DNA from: a virus
IMG/VR virus record: IMGVR_UViG_3300013137_000015
Span: 1 to 64,000 of that record
Length of the DNA stretch: 64,000 nt
Direction: 5' to 3' (one strand)
The notes below the pieces were generated by a model that ran no database searches, had not been told where the DNA came from, and saw nothing but the letters and a program-made list of their open reading frames with translations. Each line of letters opens with the position of its first letter. The stretch's first letter is position 1. Below are positions 17,336 to 63,294 of this stretch, in pieces. The translations under genes were made by a program, and so were the position numbers.

Positions 17336-17599
17336 ATGAACGAAAACGCTAACGCAAATAAAGAAAGTATTTTAGCACAATTTTCCACTGATATTACGGA
17401 ACTTGCAAAATCTGATTTGCTCGACCCTGTGATTGGTAGAGAAAGAGAAATTGAAAGGGTTGCTCAAATACTTTCACGTAGAAATAAGAACAATCCCGTT
17501 CTTATAGGAGAACCTGGTTGTGTTGATAGTGATACAATAATAAACGTACAGAAAATATCAGATGATTTTTCTCATGAAAATGTAGAAATTGACTATTAA
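17336..17599 (+). CDS. ClpC-like AAA+ unfoldase, N-terminal half with split N-intein
   Basis: 87 residues. Residues 1-61 are an N-extein with ClpA/B/C features: [20 protein letters not shown] followed by [15 protein letters not shown], stopping in the middle of the Walker A loop. Residue 62 is Cys and begins a 26-residue N-intein ([13 protein letters not shown] ...) that ends in a stop codon. Joining Gly61 to Thr138 of the downstream half restores GEPGTGKS, a complete Walker A. The usual Clp N-terminal repeat domain is absent. The protein can act only after trans-splicing with the product of 18817-21060. Confidence 0.85.
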
Positions 17600-17601
17600 T
17601 T

Positions 17602-17612
17602 TTTAATATATA
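17602..17612 (+). promoter_or_regulatory. Putative late promoter TTTAATATATA
   Basis: Exact motif 3 bases after the stop of the Clp N-half and 42 bases before the endonuclease start; it would give the endonuclease and the C-half their own late promoter. Confidence 0.55.
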
Positions 17613-17620
17613 GTTATACA

Positions 17621-17642
17621 GGTGTAGGGAAATACCAACACC
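17621..17642 (+). other. Small hairpin before the endonuclease gene
   Basis: Paired segments GGTGT / ACACC with an inner GG / CC, just upstream of the start at 17655. No T run follows, so it is more likely a leader structure that limits translation than a terminator. Confidence 0.4.
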
Positions 17643-17654
17643 AAATTTACTAAT

Positions 17655-18827
17655 ATGATAATAAAAATAAAAGGCAAAAAAGATTTAATATTCAATGACT
17701 ATAATAGTTTTTATGAATATGTTAAGATTAATATTATAAATAATCTAAAATTTGATTATTTATCTAAATTAGAAATATTTTACAATAATAATTCTAATTT
17801 CGATGGTATAAAAAATTTTAAATATATTGTTCGAAAATTATATTATAATACAACACACTTAAATAAAGAATATTGGATATCCAGAGGATGGAATAATGAT
17901 GAAGCTCTTTCTAAAATAAAAGAAATTCAAAGAAAAAATTCTAATATTTCTCAAGAAAAATCTAAAAAATTGAAAGAAAAAGATTATTTAAAATGGTGTG
18001 AGTCTCGTACAACTAAAAAAGAATACTATCTTAAAAAAGGATTGTCTGAAGAAGAATCATTAGAAGCTTTAAGCAAAAGACAATGTACATTTTCGTTAGA
18101 AAAATGTATAAACAAATATGGTGATGAAGGTCTTAATATTTGGAAAAATAGGCAGGAAAAATGGTATAATAAAATTAAAAATTATAATTTTGATAAAAAT
18201 TCATCATCATCGACATATTTTAAAAACAAATATGGAAATGATTGGATAATATATGCAATAAATAAATTATCATTCATAAATAAAGAATTTATAAAAAATA
18301 TTATAAAAACAAGTAGTAATGATTTTAAAAAATTTTTAAAGGAATATTCAAAATATAAAACCATTATTTCTTTACAGGATTTATATTTTTTATATAACTC
18401 TAATATTTTACTAGAATTTTTTAATCTTACTAAAAATGAAATGATTGATATTATAAAAAAAGAATTGAATATTAAAATATTATCATTCGGAAATATTAGA
18501 TATTTCAATGGGCATATATGTAGAAGTAATGGTGAATATTATATCGCTAAAAAATTAAAAGAAAATGATATTACATATATTTATGAAAAAAAATATACAA
18601 ATAGTAATTATATTTGTGATTTTTATATACCAAAATATGATTTATACGTAGAATATCTGGGAATGATAAAAAGTGACTACACTAAAAAGAATCATCCAGA
18701 AATATATTTTAAATATGTAGAAAAATATAATCAAAAAGAAATATTTTGTAAAGAAAATCATATAAATTATATGTATGAAAAAGACTTTAAAATAATAACA
18801 CAAAAAATAATAAACTATGGAAATTAA
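17655..18827 (+). CDS. Free-standing homing endonuclease inside the split intein, Vsr-like
   Basis: 390 residues, encoded between the two intein halves. Modules YWISRGWNNDEA and YYLKKGLSEEESLEAL, with CINKYGDEG and W-x-x-R-Q-x-K-W, are typical of phage homing nucleases. The C-terminal domain has SNGEYYIAKKL, then YICDFYIPKYDLYVEYLG, a PD-(D/E)XK/Vsr-like core. Gene organisation (N-intein, endonuclease, C-intein) matches the 'fractured gene' arrangement reported for split inteins. The stop overlaps the C-half ATG by 11 bases, so the two are probably translationally coupled. Very AT-rich with Asn/Lys/Ile codons, unlike the clp coding parts, which suggests separate origin. Confidence 0.82.
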   Translation: MIIKIKGKKDLIFNDYNSFYEYVKINIINNLKFDYLSKLEIFYNNNSNFDGIKNFKYIVRKLYYNTTHLNKEYWISRGWNNDEALSKIKEIQRKNSNISQEKSKKLKEKDYLKWCESRTTKKEYYLKKGLSEEESLEALSKRQCTFSLEKCINKYGDEGLNIWKNRQEKWYNKIKNYNFDKNSSSSTYFKNKYGNDWIIYAINKLSFINKEFIKNIIKTSSNDFKKFLKEYSKYKTIISLQDLYFLYNSNILLEFFNLTKNEMIDIIKKELNIKILSFGNIRYFNGHICRSNGEYYIAKKLKENDITYIYEKKYTNSNYICDFYIPKYDLYVEYLGMIKSDYTKKNHPEIYFKYVEKYNQKEIFCKENHINYMYEKDFKIITQKIINYGN

Positions 18828-21060
18828 AATCAAAGATTTTTATGAATTAATAAAAAATAATTCAGGTACATATGAAGTTAAAACTCCAGATGGATTTAAA
18901 CCAATAGGTAATATTTATAAAAAAAATAATAAGATAAAGTATAAAATATTATTTGAAAATAATATTGAATTAATAGCTTCTGAAGATCATCTTATACAAA
19001 CCGATACAGTTAATGTATCTGAAAACGATTTAAATTTAAATATAGAAATATTAGATAATAATACTTGGTTAAGATTAAAAAATCTTAAAAAATCCGATAA
19101 AATATTAACCAAAAATGGTTTATCATTTCCAAAAGAAATTACAAAAATAGGTTATGGTGTAACTTATGATTTAGAAGTATTAGATAAAGAACACAGATAC
19201 TATTCAAATGGTATTGTTTCACACAATACTGGAAAATCCGCCATTGTTAATGGTCTTGCACAACTTATTATTAAAGGCGAATGTCCTACAAACCTTTTAG
19301 ATAAAAAGATTCTTTCTATCGAAATGAGTTCTTTGGTGGCTGGTACTAAATACCGTGGTCAATTTGAAGAAAGAATGAAGGCTATCATTGATGAATTGAA
19401 AAAGAGAAATGATGTTATCATTTTTGTTGATGAACTACACACAATGGTTGGAGCTGGTAGTTCATCTGGTTCTCTTGATGCCGCTAATATTCTTAAACCA
19501 GCTCTTGCAAGAGGACAAATTCAATGTATAGGTGCAACAACATTTGATGAGTACAAAAACTCTGTAGAGAAAGATGGTGCATTGGAACGCAGATTTCAAA
19601 AAGTTATTATTGAACCACCTACAGCAGAAGAAACAAGAATCATTCTTGAAAAATTGAAAGAACGTTATGAAGATTATCATAATGTAAAGTATACTGATGA
19701 AGCAATAGACCTTTGTGTAAAATTAGCAGACCGTTTCATCTTTGAAAGATCATTTCCTGATAAAGCCATCGATATTCTTGATGAAGCTGGTTCACGCACA
19801 CAAATAAGCAAATCTATACCAGAACACATTAAGAAAATGAGCGAAGAAATAAAAAAAGTCATTGCTCTTAAACAATCATCAGTAAAACAACAAGATTTTG
19901 AAAAATCTGTCGTTTATCGTGACAAAGAAAAAGAACTTAAGAAAACTCTTGAAACTACTAAAGCAGAATGGAAAGAAAAGGTGGCTCAGAATGCACAAAT
20001 AGTAGATAGTGATGAAATTAGAAAGGTAGTGTCGATGATTTCAAAGATACCTGTTGAAAAAGTATCAACCAATGATGCTAAAAAGTATCTTGAACTCGAA
20101 AATATTATGAAGAAAGAGATTGTTGGACAAGATGAAGCAGTATCTCTTGTTGCAAGAGTTCTTAGAAGAAACAGAACAGCCATCTCAAACCCTAATAAAC
20201 CTATTGGAACATTTATGTTTCTTGGTAATACAGGCGTAGGTAAAACAGAAACAGCAAAAGTTATTGCAAATGAGATTTTTGGACCCAATTCGCTGATCAG
20301 AATTGATATGTCTGAATACTCTGAAAAAATCTCTGCATCAAGACTTACTGGAGCAGCACCAGGATATGTTGGTTATGAAGAAGGTGGTCAATTGACTGAA
20401 GCCGTAAGGCGTAAACCTTTTTCAGTTGTTTTATTTGATGAAATTGAAAAAGCACATTCTGACATTTATAATGTACTTCTTCAAATCCTTGATGAAGGTC
20501 GTTTAACAGACAATACAGGTCGTGTTGTTAATTTTAAAAACACTATCATTATAATGACTTCTAATGTTGGTGTTAAAAAGGCTCAAGCCTTTGGTAAAGG
20601 TGTTGGATTTACAACTTCTTCATCTCTTAAAGAAGAAGAAACTATTAAAAACAACATTATGAAAGAGTTGAAAGATAAATTTGCACCAGAGTTTTTAAAC
20701 CGTGTAAACGAATTGGTTACATTCAATCAACTGAATGAAGAAAATATCAAGGAAATTGTAAAAATTCAGATGAATAAATTGAAAAAACGCATTGATGACA
20801 TTGGATATGTTTTAAGTTGGACTCCTTCCGTAGTTGATTTTATCGCTAAGGAAACTTATGATCCTATGTACGGTGCAAGACCTGTTGAAAGAGGTATTCA
20901 GAAATTAGTAGAGGATATGATTTCAGAAGAACTTCTAAGAAATGAACCTTCATTGGGTTCTACCATGAAATTAAAATTCAGTAAGAAAGATAATAAACTT
21001 TCTGTGGCTTTCAACGAAAAGCCAACACTTGAATTGCCATCAGGTGATGTGACTGAATAA
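18817..21060 (+). CDS. clpC: Split C-intein plus main body of a ClpC-like AAA+ unfoldase
   Basis: 747 residues. Residues 1-137 are a C-intein: a block B-like ASEDHLIQT with His, a block F YDLEVLDKEHRYYSNG, and terminal VSHN. Thr138 is the +1 extein residue, followed by GKSAIVNGLA. The extein (610 residues) has D1 Walker B (VIIFVDELHT), a short ClpC/UVR-type middle domain (LKQSSVKQQDFEKSVVYRDK), D2 Walker A (GNTGVGKTETAK), D2 Walker B (VLFDEIEKAH) and a KGVGF loop that matches the VGF ClpP-docking motif of Bacillus ClpC. Mature length would be about 671 residues. The role is probably ATP-driven unfolding, perhaps feeding host ClpP. A strong terminator follows. Confidence 0.88.
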   Translation: MEIKIKDFYELIKNNSGTYEVKTPDGFKPIGNIYKKNNKIKYKILFENNIELIASEDHLIQTDTVNVSENDLNLNIEILDNNTWLRLKNLKKSDKILTKNGLSFPKEITKIGYGVTYDLEVLDKEHRYYSNGIVSHNTGKSAIVNGLAQLIIKGECPTNLLDKKILSIEMSSLVAGTKYRGQFEERMKAIIDELKKRNDVIIFVDELHTMVGAGSSSGSLDAANILKPALARGQIQCIGATTFDEYKNSVEKDGALERRFQKVIIEPPTAEETRIILEKLKERYEDYHNVKYTDEAIDLCVKLADRFIFERSFPDKAIDILDEAGSRTQISKSIPEHIKKMSEEIKKVIALKQSSVKQQDFEKSVVYRDKEKELKKTLETTKAEWKEKVAQNAQIVDSDEIRKVVSMISKIPVEKVSTNDAKKYLELENIMKKEIVGQDEAVSLVARVLRRNRTAISNPNKPIGTFMFLGNTGVGKTETAKVIANEIFGPNSLIRIDMSEYSEKISASRLTGAAPGYVGYEEGGQLTEAVRRKPFSVVLFDEIEKAHSDIYNVLLQILDEGRLTDNTGRVVNFKNTIIIMTSNVGVKKAQAFGKGVGFTTSSSLKEEETIKNNIMKELKDKFAPEFLNRVNELVTFNQLNEENIKEIVKIQMNKLKKRIDDIGYVLSWTPSVVDFIAKETYDPMYGARPVERGIQKLVEDMISEELLRNEPSLGSTMKLKFSKKDNKLSVAFNEKPTLELPSGDVTE

Positions 21061-31622: not shown

Positions 31623-32840
31623 TCACTTACCAAGTATCTTTTTTAATTGATTCAAAGTATCTTTTGTATTTTTGTGTAATATTCCAATACCACCTTTTTC
31701 TCTCCATGGTTTTATATTTTTTTCAAGATCATCTATTAATATTGTTGTTGGTGTAGCATATGATTCTTTTCTAAAGAATAAATTTACTTTTATATCACCT
31801 AATTTTCTTTTACACCATATCTTCTTACCAATTCCTGATAATTTATCTCTTGAAGGTTTTGATAAAATTTCAGTACCTTCAAATTCTTTAATATAATTCC
31901 ACAATTCTTTACCATCTGGCATCCAAGACATTTTTGACCAAAAATCTAACCCCAATGCTTTAATCTCTGACCAAAATTCCTTAGAACCACAAACTTCTTC
32001 AAATTCCCATCCAGTTTTAAAATCTGTATCGTTTTCTTTATTAAATTCTTTTAAAAATTTTCTATAAACATCACCATCAAAATCAGTCAATACCCCATCC
32101 AGGTCACAGTATATCTTGAAGTTAATCTTTTCTTCATTTATAAAATTTTTAAATTTTGTTTCAAGACTTTCTTGGTATTTGGCTTGTCTCCAAGCTAATG
32201 GATTTTTCGAATCCCATGCAGTCATGTCAGACCCCCAACCTTTACCCCAACCTTTCTTTTTAAGTTCTTGTTTTTCTTTCCAACTCATTAAATGAATGAT
32301 TTTCATTTCTTCTTCACTTCTTTTTTTAGAACCTCTATAATTTGATAGTGGTACTAAAAAAGGTTTAATTTTATCATTCAAACCTTGACACCAATAACCT
32401 TCATTCCAATCCGCATCATCTGGATCTGTCAAATCTTTATCAATAACTTCAATTAACCACTCAGGTTGTGAGAAATCTAATTCTTTTAATAAAGGATATT
32501 TTTTATTAAATGCTTCTTCAATATCATCTAAAATTTGTTGCATTTCAGATGGTTGTGGATATGTCCAAAAAGAAATAACTTGTTGTTCATACCAAAATCT
32601 TCCTAAAAATTTATATGCAGCGTCTCTGTCCAAGACGTGGTCTTCGTCTACAAACATTTCATATTCATCGTCTGTCAACATTTGAATATGTGTTTTACAC
32701 AATCCAACTCTCATTTCATCACCTCTATAACCAAAAGCGACTGCATCATCTTTTTGCCAATTGACATAAATTGATCTTGGTTCTTTATATGTAATAATAT
32801 CTGGATTTTCAAAAAGTTTATATTTCAATATTTTGTTCAT
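31623..32840 (-). CDS. Tagged two-part protein: shared N-terminal module plus HAD 5'-nucleotidase-like domain
   Basis: 405 residues, starting MNKILKYKLFENPD. Residues about 1-225 form a module shared with the next gene, ending in KKGWGKGWGSDMTAWDSK. A second tag-like segment, ETKFKNFINEE (residues 227-237), marks the junction, as if a tagged HAD protein had been joined to the module. The HAD domain has YCDLDGVLTDFDGD (Asp246, Asp248) and a late ILIDDLEKN, like deoxyribonucleotidases (NT5C type). It shares one base with the gene upstream at 32840, so translation is probably coupled. Confidence 0.75.
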   Translation of the reverse strand: MNKILKYKLFENPDIITYKEPRSIYVNWQKDDAVAFGYRGDEMRVGLCKTHIQMLTDDEYEMFVDEDHVLDRDAAYKFLGRFWYEQQVISFWTYPQPSEMQQILDDIEEAFNKKYPLLKELDFSQPEWLIEVIDKDLTDPDDADWNEGYWCQGLNDKIKPFLVPLSNYRGSKKRSEEEMKIIHLMSWKEKQELKKKGWGKGWGSDMTAWDSKNPLAWRQAKYQESLETKFKNFINEEKINFKIYCDLDGVLTDFDGDVYRKFLKEFNKENDTDFKTGWEFEEVCGSKEFWSEIKALGLDFWSKMSWMPDGKELWNYIKEFEGTEILSKPSRDKLSGIGKKIWCKRKLGDIKVNLFFRKESYATPTTILIDDLEKNIKPWREKGGIGILHKNTKDTLNQLKKILGK

Positions 32841-34234
32841 TATTGGGTATATATTTTATCATAAAAACGATTTACAACATTTATCAGTCTACCAAAATCG
32901 CCATTATTTCTTAATTTTTTGAAAACTAAATTTTCAAGTGAAAATTCACCTCCCCTTGATAATCCTTCTTTTCTTTCATTGTGTATTTTCTTTTTATATT
33001 CAGATGCAAAAAGATAATTCTTATGTGATACTTCTGATGTACTTGTTATATTACTTATTTCTTCTAATTTATCAATACCGCTTTTATATGTGAGGTATTT
33101 AAAATCAACTTCTTCTTCATTTATTTGTGGCTTATTCCAATCAGGTTTTGATATCCATTTATTACTTAACAGAGAATAAATACCTTGTGAAACATTTGGG
33201 TCGTTAATATCTTGAATATATAATTCAACATCATGACCTTTAATTCTTATATTATGTTTTAAATTCCATAATGCTCTTTCATTATCAACTATTTTCTTTC
33301 CTAATTCTACATTTGAATTTATTTTAGAAACATCAACTAAGATATGAACATCCAAATCTGAAAATTCATTCCAATTATAATTTGCTAATGAACCAGTTAA
33401 AATAATATCAATGATAGAAGATTGATATCCAAAACCAGTATAAAACTCTGTTGCTATTGTAACTAATTTTTGTCTAATTCTTTCATTAAAAATTTCATCA
33501 GACCAGAATTTAGGATTTAATTCTTTTTTATAATAAAATTGTGCGCTTTCTTGGTATTTAGCTTGTCTCCAAGCCAATGGATTTTTCGAATCCCATGCGG
33601 TCATATCGGAACCCCAACCTTTGCCCCAGCCTTTCTTTTTCATTTCTTGTTTTTCTGCCCAAGATAGTAAATGGATTGCTCTTTCTTCTTCTGAAAATTG
33701 TTCTGAACCCATATAATCTTTTATCTTAATAAGTTTAGAATTATCAGAATCGCCCCAATATTTATAATCATTTTCTATTTGTTTTCCTGCTTCGTTTGTA
33801 ACAATTTCAATCCACCAATCATCTGTTATTTCAATATCAATGTTTTTCTTTTTAAATGCTTTCATAATATCATTTAAAACTTTCCATAATTTTGTATAAT
33901 CTTTTGGAAAATCCCAAAAAGTAATGTATTTGTTGTCTTTCCATAATCTTCCTGAATATTTTAAATCCTCTCTCTCTAAACCATAATCTGTTAATTCTCC
34001 ATGACACATTCTAGCATATGAAGATACCAATATTTTATCTTTATAATATCCAAATATATATGCATCATTTTCATAATAATCTATTTCAACGCCATCTTTT
34101 TTTATCAAATGATCTGGACTTTCATTTAATACACTTTCTTGATTGGAACTCCATTCATTGATCTTTTCGTCATCTTCTATTTTGCAGATAGCGTTTAGAT
34201 TTTCAAATAGTTTATATTTATTTAGATGTTTCAT
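32840..34234 (-). CDS. Tagged two-part protein: shared N-terminal module plus nucleotidyltransferase-like domain
   Basis: 464 residues, starting MKHLNKYKLFENLN. The first 230 residues are paralogous to the neighbour, including KKGWGKGWGSDMTAWDSK and NPLAWRQAKYQES, which are almost identical in both protein and DNA. The C-terminal domain has ILTGSLANYNWNEFSDLDVHI (Gly281-Ser282, Asp293, Asp295), the catalytic signature of polymerase-beta-type (MNT/KNT) nucleotidyltransferases. Such enzymes add nucleotides to proteins, tRNA or small molecules; the target is unknown. The one-base stop/start overlaps on both sides indicate an operon. Confidence 0.75.
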   Translation of the reverse strand: MKHLNKYKLFENLNAICKIEDDEKINEWSSNQESVLNESPDHLIKKDGVEIDYYENDAYIFGYYKDKILVSSYARMCHGELTDYGLEREDLKYSGRLWKDNKYITFWDFPKDYTKLWKVLNDIMKAFKKKNIDIEITDDWWIEIVTNEAGKQIENDYKYWGDSDNSKLIKIKDYMGSEQFSEEERAIHLLSWAEKQEMKKKGWGKGWGSDMTAWDSKNPLAWRQAKYQESAQFYYKKELNPKFWSDEIFNERIRQKLVTIATEFYTGFGYQSSIIDIILTGSLANYNWNEFSDLDVHILVDVSKINSNVELGKKIVDNERALWNLKHNIRIKGHDVELYIQDINDPNVSQGIYSLLSNKWISKPDWNKPQINEEEVDFKYLTYKSGIDKLEEISNITSTSEVSHKNYLFASEYKKKIHNERKEGLSRGGEFSLENLVFKKLRNNGDFGRLINVVNRFYDKIYTQ

Positions 34235-35133
34235 TACAATTTCTTTTCAAATGCCCATAAATCAAATTCTGTTATATTACTAACATTTGTATTTTTATTG
34301 AATTGGTCACCTGTAAATGATTTTATAGTTTTATATGAACCTAATAATTTCTTACCTTCATAAACTTGAACGGTTCTGTTTAATTCGCCTAATGCACCAA
34401 CAACAGCTAAATAATCATTCGAGAAAATTGTTTTTAAGATGCTTATTTTAACATCCTTAGGATTTGACTTACCTTCTTTTATTGTAGGATTAGACCATGG
34501 ATCTTTAAGATTCAATACAGTACCAGTATTTTTAATTGAAATTTTTGGTGTTCCAATTGGTTTTTGTGCTTGAATTTTTACTTCTTCTTCTTTCTCAATC
34601 TTTCCAGCTTTTATAAGTGCTTCTTGATTTCTTCTAATAGTATTAAAATCTGCTCTTGCAATAGTTCTTTCAGTCATAACTCTATCATTCATCTTATAAC
34701 CTTTTGGTGGAAGACGATAGAAATGACCAGTAAACATCATACCCTTTACATTACTTGCTTTAAATAATCTCCAAACTTTTTTAGTTTCTTTTTTCTGTGA
34801 TACTGAATAACCTTCTAAATGCCAACCTCTAATCAATTCATTCTTGGTGTTTTTATTTATACCAAGAACCATAGGATATACAATTCTCTCTCTCCCTCCG
34901 CCCCAAGTGTCTTTTTCGCCTTTATATAATATTAATAAAACCATACCATTCTGAATGGCTTGAACCATTTTAGCACGGTCATATTTAATTCTTTTATTAA
35001 CAGGAAAACCAGGAACAATATCCATAATTTTCTGATTTTCATTTAATTTAAAACGTATTTTTGGTATATATTCTATATCATTTTTTGTAGATTCTATTCT
35101 CTCCACAAATCCTTGATAATCTAGGTCTAACAT
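34234..35133 (-). CDS. Hypothetical protein with possible WYL-like domain
   Basis: 299 residues, starting MLDLDYQGFVERIESTK, without a tag. The segment MVLLILYKGEKDTWGGGRER with IVYPMVLGINKNTKNELIRG and WRLFKASNVKGM resembles the beta-barrel pattern of WYL/SH3-like ligand-binding domains; weak. The C-terminal third contains a second beta-rich unit. It is first or second in the operon with the two modular tagged genes. Confidence 0.55.
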   Translation of the reverse strand: MLDLDYQGFVERIESTKNDIEYIPKIRFKLNENQKIMDIVPGFPVNKRIKYDRAKMVQAIQNGMVLLILYKGEKDTWGGGRERIVYPMVLGINKNTKNELIRGWHLEGYSVSQKKETKKVWRLFKASNVKGMMFTGHFYRLPPKGYKMNDRVMTERTIARADFNTIRRNQEALIKAGKIEKEEEVKIQAQKPIGTPKISIKNTGTVLNLKDPWSNPTIKEGKSNPKDVKISILKTIFSNDYLAVVGALGELNRTVQVYEGKKLLGSYKTIKSFTGDQFNKNTNVSNITEFDLWAFEKKL

Positions 35134-48481: not shown

Positions 48482-49357
48482 ATGAAACTTAAAAAATATA
48501 ATCAATTTATTAATGAGGCTTGGGTTGATGGTGTGAGTGATATGGCTAAATATAACAAAATGATAGATTATACATTACTTGATAATAATGCAACAACAGA
48601 AGATATTATAAGTTTATGCGAAGCTGCAAGAATAATGGATGTAAAATCAGTTTGTGTTATGCCTAAACATGTTCATATTGCTGCAGAAGAATTATCAGAT
48701 TGTGGTGTTTTAGTTTGTACTGTAATATCATTTCCCGAAGGAACAAATACAAATATACAAAAAGAAAAAGAAACTATTCAAGTTATTCAAGATGGTGCAG
48801 ATGAAGTTGATATGGTATTAAATTATCAAAATTTAAAGAAAAACTGGAATGAAAATAATCAATCTGGTGCTATTCCTCATGAAAATGATGATTTGTATAT
48901 AACTGTTGTGGAAGAAATTGGCGAAATTGCTAAAATATGTCATAGTTCAGAAAACAAAGACAACGAACCAATAATATTAAAAGTTATTGTCGAAAGTGGT
49001 AGGTTAGATATTGATCAGACAGAATTTGTTACAAATGCTTGTATGCAAGCAAATGCAGATTTTATAAAAACATCAACTGGTAAAGTAGAAATTGGAGCAG
49101 AACTTGATAAAGTTAAAGCAATGTATAATATTATACAAAATGCTGATGAAGATAATTCTATTGTTATGTATGATGAACATGGTAATGATGAAAATATTTA
49201 TCCTTATAATATTAATTTAAAAATAAAAGCTTCTGGTGGTGTTAGAACAATGGAAGATATTAAAAAATTTGAACCATATGTAGATAGATTTGGAATGGGT
49301 TATGCTGCAGTTGATGCACTCAATGGTTTAGAAAGAAAAGGTGATTCCAATTATTAA
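48482..49357 (+). CDS. deoC: Tagged deoxyribose-phosphate aldolase
   Basis: 291 residues: a tag (MKLKKYNQFINEAW) and a complete DeoC TIM barrel. Visible active-site elements are IDYTLLDNNAT, ADEVDMVLN (Asp110), LKVIVESG (Lys167), DFIKTSTGK (Schiff-base Lys196) and KASGGVRT (Lys249). DeoC splits 2-deoxyribose-5-phosphate into acetaldehyde and glyceraldehyde-3-phosphate. Its usual length is about 250, so the tag and a short acidic insertion explain the excess. The adjacent tagged deoxyribosyltransferase-like gene suggests a joint role in deoxynucleoside breakdown. A TTTTATATATA variant of the late motif lies at about 48434. Confidence 0.92.
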   Translation: MKLKKYNQFINEAWVDGVSDMAKYNKMIDYTLLDNNATTEDIISLCEAARIMDVKSVCVMPKHVHIAAEELSDCGVLVCTVISFPEGTNTNIQKEKETIQVIQDGADEVDMVLNYQNLKKNWNENNQSGAIPHENDDLYITVVEEIGEIAKICHSSENKDNEPIILKVIVESGRLDIDQTEFVTNACMQANADFIKTSTGKVEIGAELDKVKAMYNIIQNADEDNSIVMYDEHGNDENIYPYNINLKIKASGGVRTMEDIKKFEPYVDRFGMGYAAVDALNGLERKGDSNY

Positions 49358-61172: not shown

Positions 61173-61490
61173 TTCAATACTATCCATAAAATTTTTATAC
61201 GAATTCATTCGGAATTTCTCATTTTCAATATCAAAGAATATTGTTTGTGCATTAACTTCTTTCATATCCACAAAATAAGCTACAGATTTTCCATCTTTCT
61301 TAATAGTTTCAACATCACCTGGAGATTCCATAACAAATGATAATTTTTGCATTATTCCTTCCGCATCAGAAGGTTTTGAATATGTACTTATAATATCAAT
61401 CAATTCTTCTGAGTATTCGTTATAATATTTTACAATTAACTCATTTAATTTGTTATTATTGTAGGCTTCGTATTGTCTTATATATTTCAT
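61170..61490 (-). CDS. Small tagged protein
   Basis: 106 residues, starting MKYIRQYEAYNNNKLNEL, a tag with a displaced L-N-E site. The remainder is a compact alpha/beta unit with GKSAVYFVDM-like strand (SVAYFVDMKEV). It overlaps the upstream gene by 4 bases and is the last gene of the tandem array operon. Confidence 0.65.
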   Translation of the reverse strand: MKYIRQYEAYNNNKLNELIVKYYNEYSEELIDIISTYSKPSDAEGIMQKLSFVMESPGDVETIKKDGKSVAYFVDMKEVNAQTIFFDIENEKFRMNSYKNFMDSIE

Positions 61491-62398
61491 AATCTGTTAT
61501 TCTTTTGTCTTATTTTTTTACCTGTTTTCTTTTCTAATTTTTGAATGAATTTGAATGATAATCTATCATTTATAAACAAACATGGGCTATCTGTCCAACA
61601 TTCGTTATAACTATTAATTGATATTTTATCTATATGTTGCTTCCAATTTCCTTGAACTGATTCATTATATATTTCTTGCCAACTTAACAATCTAAAATTG
61701 TTCAATGTTGGTGACATCATCATTCTTATTTTTTTGAAAAGTTTACCATTTTCTAAAATTTTAGATAATAATTCATATTGTCTATTATTATTTGGTATTT
61801 CTATATAATCATCTAATGATTTTATTTCATTTTTAAATATTTTAAAATTCTTATCATTTAGTTCTTCTTTAGTTTGGTCTTTGTATATATTTGCAAGAAT
61901 ATTAAAAAAATTATCAATATCATATGAAAATCCTAAATATTCACTTGTTCCCTTTTTGAAAGCTTGAAAAATATCAGATGCTGGTGCTATTCCCCACATC
62001 GAACCGTCAATAGGTATAACAATATATTCTTCATCACCAATTTGTTTTTTACCAAGTGAACAAATAAAAGATTTTGTTCTTTTTGGAAATAATTTCCATT
62101 CTGGAAGATTATCTAACATTAATGTATAATGATTTGAATTGTCTCTTGACCATCTTTTAACAGGTTTACTATAATAAATATCTAATAATTTATTGTTATC
62201 ATCACCATCATTTGATGTCATTGTTATACCTCTCACCATTCTAAAAGGATGATTAATAAAATCTTGACAATTCTTTATTGCGAAATTAACAGCTTTATCA
62301 ATTTTCATTTCTTCAGCCGCTTTTAGAAAACGATTAACTGTTTTCTTTTCTCTCTTTCTCCAAATGCTTGTGTCTTCAAATTGTTGTAAATATTTCAT
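61487..62398 (-). CDS. Tagged paralogue family member 1, possibly ADP-ribosyltransferase-like
   Basis: 303 residues, starting MKYLQQFEDTSIWRK. Core features shared with the next two genes are FRMVRGITM, YYSKPVKRWSRD, YTLMLDN, FPKRTKSFICSL, YIVIPIDGSMWGIAP and a C-terminal ECWTDSPCLFI. The 'RG ... R-x-S/x-R-D ... K-R-x-x-S-F-I ... V-I-P' pattern recalls a phage protein family with ADP-ribosyltransferase-like layout, but this is a weak comparison. It overlaps its neighbours by 1 and 4 bases. Confidence 0.7.
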   Translation of the reverse strand: MKYLQQFEDTSIWRKREKKTVNRFLKAAEEMKIDKAVNFAIKNCQDFINHPFRMVRGITMTSNDGDDNNKLLDIYYSKPVKRWSRDNSNHYTLMLDNLPEWKLFPKRTKSFICSLGKKQIGDEEYIVIPIDGSMWGIAPASDIFQAFKKGTSEYLGFSYDIDNFFNILANIYKDQTKEELNDKNFKIFKNEIKSLDDYIEIPNNNRQYELLSKILENGKLFKKIRMMMSPTLNNFRLLSWQEIYNESVQGNWKQHIDKISINSYNECWTDSPCLFINDRLSFKFIQKLEKKTGKKIRQKNNRL

Positions 62399-63294
62399 TA
62401 TATTAATTCATTCATTTTTCCATTTGATTTAAGCTTTTCTAACAATGGTATTTTTTGCATAGTATTATGTTGTCCTTGTATAAATAAACAAGTTGATTCT
62501 GACCATATTTCATTTCTTGTATTATGAATTCCATATTTTCCTCTTTGATATAACTGTTGTAAATTTAATAATTTAAATCTGTTAATTTCTGGTGAAAATA
62601 TATGTAATAATTTTTTCCAAGCATTTTTTGACATAAAATTGATAAAATCTTCTTCATAATCTATATCATCTTCTCCTATATATTTAACCTCAACACCGTG
62701 TCTATTATTTTTAAATTCTTTCAACTTTTTTTCTATCTCATCTATACCCTTATGCAAATCTTCATAATTTGTTTGGCTCAATTCTACATTAAATTTTTTA
62801 GAAATATCAAGTATTCTATCAACAAAATTATCAGCTGCTTCTGTCATCCAACCAGCGGCATCCATACCATTAATAAATGAATCATATATATCTACTTCAT
62901 TACAAACGCCCCAAATAGAATTATCATTTGGTATAACAACAAATGCGTTACCATTCATATTAGAATATAACAAAGAACAAATAAAAGATTTACTTCTCTT
63001 TGGATAATCTTTCCATTCTGGTGCATTATCCATAATTAAAGTATAATAATTTTCACAATCTCTTGAAATTCTATCTACTGGTTTAGAATAAAAACAATTT
63101 TCAGTTGTTTGAATTCTTCTTCCTATTTTTACTGGATATTCTAACCATTCATTACAATTTTTTATAACATAATCAAAAGCTTCATCTTCGGTTAATTTGA
63201 CCATTGATTTTACGAACCTATTTTTTACATCTAAAGTATTAGGGATTCTTTTTTCATCATATACAAAATATTCATATTTATTTAGATATTTCAT
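62398..63294 (-). CDS. Tagged paralogue family member 2
   Basis: 298 residues, starting MKYLNKYEYFVYDEK. Same blocks as member 1: FYSKPVDRISRD, YTLIMDN, YPKRSKSFICSL, FVVIPNDNSIWGV and a final EIWSESTCLFI. The RG pair of member 1 is replaced by GRRI, and an insertion near residue 195 is acidic (GEDDIDYEEDFI). Divergence with conserved core blocks points to old duplications with changed specificity. It overlaps the third copy by 4 bases. Confidence 0.7.
   Translation of the reverse strand: MKYLNKYEYFVYDEKRIPNTLDVKNRFVKSMVKLTEDEAFDYVIKNCNEWLEYPVKIGRRIQTTENCFYSKPVDRISRDCENYYTLIMDNAPEWKDYPKRSKSFICSLLYSNMNGNAFVVIPNDNSIWGVCNEVDIYDSFINGMDAAGWMTEAADNFVDRILDISKKFNVELSQTNYEDLHKGIDEIEKKLKEFKNNRHGVEVKYIGEDDIDYEEDFINFMSKNAWKKLLHIFSPEINRFKLLNLQQLYQRGKYGIHNTRNEIWSESTCLFIQGQHNTMQKIPLLEKLKSNGKMNELI

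Follow-up and report, generated by a model that had tools for sequence, protein, structure and literature searches.

Two adjacent genes of a viral genome, here called P1 and P2, encode proteins that begin with a short tag and a common module and end in different enzymes, which raises the question of what a phage would do with one module attached to exchangeable partners. The window analyzed (the whole stretch of 64,000 nucleotides) is part of a 72,002-base IMG/VR virus record. The original prediction read the pair as an N-terminal trafficking module with swappable tips, arranged like a polymorphic toxin and carried by a phage.

The gene pair

P1 and P2 are 38% identical across 252 residues (E=9e-33), and a module of ~200 residues is homologous in both, bearing out the prediction of adjacent tagged proteins with a common module but different C-terminal enzymes. 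In P1, residues 238-402 match the PHROG 2643 5'-3' deoxyribonucleotidase (E=2e-22) and, over cut-off, Pfam NT5C (8e-6); P2 residues 232-460 match phrog_36119 (1e-43) and, again over cut-off, NTP_transf_2 (1.7e-4), a domain of pol-beta type. These Pfam and PHROG matches, a nucleotidase and a nucleotidyltransferase (NTase), were found in the two C-termini instead of a toxin domain, and a reading of the neighbouring ORFs for an immunity gene revealed no small untagged partner behind the variable tips. Both enzyme families are also found module-free in other phages. A PDB sequence search returned nothing for the HAD domain, the NTase domain or a ligase-like region of the kind described below; a match of ORF 30445 to a proteasome subunit (E 0.56) in that search was judged to be chance. 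P1 overlaps P2 by one base, as P2 does the ORF upstream, so that co-translation is probable (Table 1).

The nearly identical block noticed in both proteins turned out to be longer than first stated: all 32 of its residues (KKKGWGKGWGSDMTAWDSKNPLAWRQAKYQES) are identical between P1 and P2, and the DNA is conserved at 87 of 96 bases. Because 9/9 base differences are synonymous, the protein sequence is under constraint. A second tag-like segment, KFKNFINE↓E (residues 229-237; arrows mark candidate cuts), is indeed present in P1 immediately before the HAD domain. As had been proposed, it looks like a fusion scar, and similar scars recur across the module family. P2 has a second site of its own, QESVLNE↓SPD (residues 32-41), just ahead of its module, which had been overlooked; the insert that ends in it resembles the junction of two tandem modules and is possibly the remnant of a lost first module.

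Table 1. Positions in the window of P1, P2, their component features and the overlapping upstream ORF.
Feature	Coordinates	Strand	Basis
P1: tag, module, tag-like junction and HAD 5'-nucleotidase, 405 aa	31623..32840	-	ORF; NT5C/phrog_2643; module homology to P2
N-terminal tag of P1, MNKILKYKLFE, with a protease cut predicted behind E11 (LFE↓NPD)	32808..32840	-	LxE[NSTD]PD rule
P1 module; core acidic (pI 4.6), tail basic (pI 9.7)	32166..32807	-	HMM from A2/A3; computed pI
P1 shared block KKKGWGKGWGSDMTAWDSKNPLAWRQAKYQES	32166..32261	-	Identity to P2
P1 internal tag-like segment LETKFKNFINE↓E, at HAD junction	32133..32165	-	Fits [FYW]xx[FYW][ILVM]xE
P1 HAD 5'-deoxyribonucleotidase domain; DLDGV and IDD acidic motifs present	31626..32129	-	Pfam/PHROG; motifs read from sequence
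P2: tag, short insert, module and nucleotidyltransferase, 464 aa	32840..34234	-	ORF; NTP_transf_2/phrog_36119
P2 N-terminal tag MKHLNKYKLFE↓N	34202..34234	-	Sequence; tag enrichment
P2 insert ending NQESVLNE↓SPD	34121..34201	-	Compared with L005 and L058 module junctions
P2 module, core pI 4.7, tail pI 9.5	33545..34120	-	Computed pI; AlphaFold2 model, mean pLDDT 80.6
P2 shared block	33545..33640	-	Identity to P1 block
P2 pol-beta-type nucleotidyltransferase domain; GS...DxD motif present	32843..33541	-	Pfam/PHROG; motif read from sequence
Overlapping ORF upstream (299 aa, untagged, without family match), presumed to be in the same operon	34234..35133	-	ORF; Pfam/PHROG

A module family and its partners

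A database search with the module, the check originally suggested, shows that it is not private to this pair. DNA-pattern scans followed by a profile identified 119 module-bearing IMG/VR loci with 127 distinct ORFs, a count by locus that includes near-copies and loci on a common contig, as well as ORFs truncated where a locus ends; the profile was built from the first locus set and used to count modules in all loci. Single-sequence and alignment-based scans of IMG/VR recovered at most one relative, the peptide patterns being too few or poorly conserved, and many more were recovered by degenerate DNA patterns for GRxWxxxKxIxFW. The first relative (L003) already contains four module copies across three adjacent genes.

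When 46 modules were scanned against Pfam and PHROGs, no family was common to two members, and an isolated match of P2 to T4_y05I_N (E 0.013) was rejected. When three modules were used as tblastn queries against INPHARED, two returned nothing and the third no more than weak Lak matches (E=6). Foldseek comparison of an AlphaFold2 module model with PDB and BFVD produced none at E<=0.001 and best TM-scores of about 0.2, and weak EF-hand matches of the module profile in the PDB sequence search (E 0.02 and worse) were judged to be chance. As a protein family the module is widespread, and it has no match in the libraries searched and no fold match here.

Scanning GTDB genomes reduced 33 pattern matches to one strong module and two marginal ones. 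The strong one (L140, 2194-3954, +) is the single module of a 586-aa ORF on a Bacteroidales MAG contig, which is probably a phage contig in the bin and could hint at the host group. In two IMG/VR loci the module ORFs are interrupted by stops (L039, 664-6834, -; L019, 190-3849, +). All six stops in the L039 module frame are TGA, several of them where other copies have Trp, and with TGA read as Trp (table 4) L039 becomes a single ORF of 2057 codons with six modules and L019 one of 1220 codons with five.

Some copies of the module stand alone, some form tandems of 2-6, and some are fused to other domains, which may lie on either side. Most of the 127 ORFs have one copy (86, some little more than the module alone) and the other 41 have two to six; in L004, L008, L050 and L168 the enzyme precedes the module. 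Such module-only ORFs, strings of up to six and positions C-terminal to enzymes do not support the idea that the module is simply an N-terminal trafficking part. Its partner domains are many and different, and most tips in the family are enzymes that process nucleotides or RNA. Pfam and PHROG searches identified WYL_2 (L005), NUDIX (L007), 2H / 2'-5' RNA ligase (L050, L150), cytidylyltransferase (L008, L168), NTP_transf_2 / phrog_36119 (L004 and L045, as in P2), tRNA-ligase CPD (L031), a poly(A)-polymerase head (L155), phage lysozyme (L147), DUF5661 (L046) and, below the Pfam cut-off, a methyltransferase (L058). By eye only, we noted KxDGQN ligase-like regions (L039, L050, L168), a GNAT-like and a ParB-like stretch (L021, L032) and, in L008 and L203 only, HExxH-like stretches that have no Pfam match and none of which was seen in P1 or P2. 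Several activities can be combined in one polypeptide: L050 has 2H, two modules and a ligase-like region, while L008 and L168 each have cytidylyltransferase, module and ligase-like region (the last again by eye).

The module's tail, taken as the last 40-60 residues after an H..SP..K motif, is more similar than the core within a phage (identity 0.524 vs 0.345), whereas between phages it is not (0.285 vs 0.301); the within- versus between-phage contrast for the tail has p=1e-11, calculated on pairs that are not independent. In the window pair the corresponding identities are 0.76 for the tail and 0.31 for the core, and in both proteins an acidic core is joined to a basic tail by computed pI. This likeness within a phage could have arisen by gene conversion, or could mark a contact co-evolving with the head of the phage concerned. 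A tail-pattern scan returned mostly loci already known, and when five large records were searched for module tails on module-free proteins, the hits were mostly known modules, the exception being a weak match in G004 (E 8e-4).

Tags, candidate cut sites and prohead genes

Nearly every module copy, N-terminal or internal, begins at [L/I]-x-E↓[N/S/T/D]-P-D, in which the middle residue x of LxE is variable. T4 gp21 cleaves after L/I-X-E, and T4 propeptides serve as capsid-targeting sequences (PMC9026906). The module-start motif looks like this prohead-protease consensus, which would make the module borders candidate cut sites. In one set of copies, for which the search required E but not L/I, position P3 of the xxE site is L/I/M/V/F in 34/35 N-terminal and 37/38 internal copies. 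In another, located by the PD anchor alone with E not required, E is present in 54/58 copies and is accompanied by L/I at P3 in 47/58, including 25 of the 30 internal ones.

Similar sites are found outside the module. T4 ipII and ipIII start with MKTYQEFIAE, and the pattern [FYW]xx[FYW][ILVM]xE is present at the N-terminus of 6/70 window ORFs, against 0.68 expected, and also at the P1 HAD junction; many window tags deviate from the exact T4 spacing. Across module-bearing loci 123/588 genes have N-terminal LxE tags, where 61 would be expected and a control stretch gives 58; homologous genes inflate the count. Many tagged genes of the window have no module, so the tag is also used independently of it. 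Its resemblance to the T4 capsid-targeting sequence makes the short tag a better candidate for an address than the module. Among 34 ORFs in which the module is followed by a long partner region, some of them near-copies, a relaxed LxE-type motif lies within 35 aa of the module end in 26, compared with 6/34 and then 14/34 (70-105 aa) in the following two stretches. In P2 there is no LxE between module and NTase, only YQE↓S, and the NTase may therefore stay fused to the module.

The S77, gp21-type prohead protease (PF03420) scored over cut-off in 11 of 20 sampled module-bearing records; none was found in the other nine or in the record that contains the window (72 kb; it may be a fragment). A gp23-like capsid protein was found in 8/8 module-bearing records checked, a comparison made in related records; the capsid protein of the window phage itself was not located. 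In these proteins [L/I/M]xE aligns to T4 E65↓A66, which we take to be the processing point of the T4 capsid protein.

Two further sets of tagged genes were noted in the window. One (48482-49357, +) encodes a DeoC/LacD-family aldolase, which would be surprising as head cargo should the tag serve for targeting. The other comprises adjacent genes (61487-62398 and 62398-63294, -) for proteins of ~300 aa that are paralogue-like by eye and have no Pfam match above cut-off.

Probable head cargo and its alternatives

Judging from these sequence features, we consider it probable that P1 and P2 are head-cargo precursors of a large T4-type phage, targeted to the capsid, cut by the prohead protease and ejected into the host. 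The analysis shows the family, its architectures, the conservation of the sites and their co-occurrence with protease and capsid protein; from these we infer that the proteins are packaged, cleaved and ejected, and what the module itself does, with tag-driven packaging suggested by the resemblance of the tag to T4's experimentally defined capsid-targeting sequence. The short N-terminal tag would draw P1 and P2 into the prohead core, where the S77 protease would cleave behind (L/I)-x-E, both between tag and module and at tag-like sites further in (FINE↓E ahead of the P1 HAD domain, for instance), freeing the module inside the head, plus the partner enzyme where a site exists. Module and enzyme would then be ejected with the DNA, and the enzymes would act early on nucleotides or RNA. 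The module itself would be an internal-head-protein unit multiplied via duplication and fusion, whose phage-specific basic tail plausibly contacts the phage's own core, capsid or DNA. It is also possible, though we lean against it, that the family consists of head-cargo polyproteins of large uncultivated phages in which up to six modules without detectable known relatives, together with enzymes, are split by prohead-protease sites, and in which the genome-specific tail is a private packing address co-evolving with the head. The new element relative to T4 would be the fusion into cleavable strings.

Some of the same observations would fit a module that is itself the delivery or sorting part, carrying interchangeable effector tips and using its phage-specific tail as the address: the partners are many and unrelated, the tail is homogenized inside a phage and not across phages, and an acidic core is combined with a basic tail. 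We nonetheless think this unlikely, given that module-only ORFs and partner-free tandem strings are common, that the module also stands C-terminal to enzymes, and that many window genes are tagged yet module-free. Points that weigh against head cargo are the records in which no PF03420 was found, the P2 NTase with no LxE ahead of it, the LxE-like matches in the stretches further downstream and the inexact T4 spacing of many window tags. A different objection is that LxE-x-PD could be part of the module fold instead of a cleavage site, which also counts against head cargo; motif and tag might then be structural or translational features, and the proteins intracellular enzymes, never packaged, fused to a phage-specific binding domain. 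That would agree with a window record in which no protease was detected and with two enzyme families that are free-standing in other phages, but it seems improbable to us: x varies while L/I and E are kept, internal junctions included, the tag is similar to the T4 targeting sequence, and related records have both the T4-type protease and the capsid-protein site.

Tandem copies with strongly diverged cores (about 30% identity), a window-pair block that is identical with synonymous changes only, and the presence of host-take-over factors among the T4 internal proteins (PMC9026906) could also be accommodated if the module were a host-directed effector, for example a defence-system inhibitor, diversified in copies and with tails that are gene-conversion tracts. 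However, tails are shared in most multi-copy phages and cores are not, and the protein sequence of the window block is kept despite the synonymous changes, which together suggest a function for the tail. We regard such an effector as highly improbable, and note that it would be compatible with head cargo, not exclusive of it.

Among known systems, T4-type internal head proteins and polyvalent proteins are closer analogies than polymorphic toxins. T4 IPI-III and Alt are like the module proteins in having a ~10-residue N-terminal tag of similar design and an (L/I)xE site, and the likeness extends to the gp23-like capsid protein and S77 protease of related records and to the enzymes among the cargo candidates. 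Whereas the T4 tags are N-terminal, tag-like sites in the module family also lie within strings (up to six) and before fused enzymes, and Pfam and PHROG searches indicate no relation between the module and T4 internal proteins. Polyvalent proteins are multidomain phage proteins with disparate enzymes (pol-beta NTase, 2H and others) that are thought to be injected with the DNA (Iyer et al. 2017, PMC5512222), and are the closest multidomain analogy: their partners overlap with those of the module in pol-beta NTase and 2H and, by eye only, in ParB-like and GNAT stretches (PMC5512222). Fusion to a zincin-like peptidase is a theme there (PMC5512222) that is not established for the module proteins, whose processing we ascribe to the prohead protease and whose shared module lies outside current family libraries. 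The ejection proteins of phiKZ and SPN3US are likewise packed in the head and matured by a protease (A-X-E), and have paralogues (PMC5694885); they mostly have long propeptides, compared with short tags here, and a different cleavage motif, and in the passages on them no repeated module is noted. With polymorphic toxins the family shares a conserved region with exchangeable C-terminal domains, and to that extent the original comparison stands. It fails in that we saw no secretion-system N-terminus, recognisable toxin tips or, beside the pair, immunity genes, and in that the module also occurs alone, repeated and C-terminal.

If P1 and P2 are indeed head cargo, the module would provide a sequence handle for capsid-delivered proteins in phages nobody can grow, the LxE-tag rule would predict enzymes that are carried into the cell ahead of any gene expression, and the T4 scheme of one tag per cargo protein would be extended to cleavable polyproteins. 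The likeness of tails within a phage turns the packing address into a testable question. Elsewhere in the window, a ClpA-like start is followed by ORFs that resemble, by eye only, an intein or mobile insertion (17336-21060, +).
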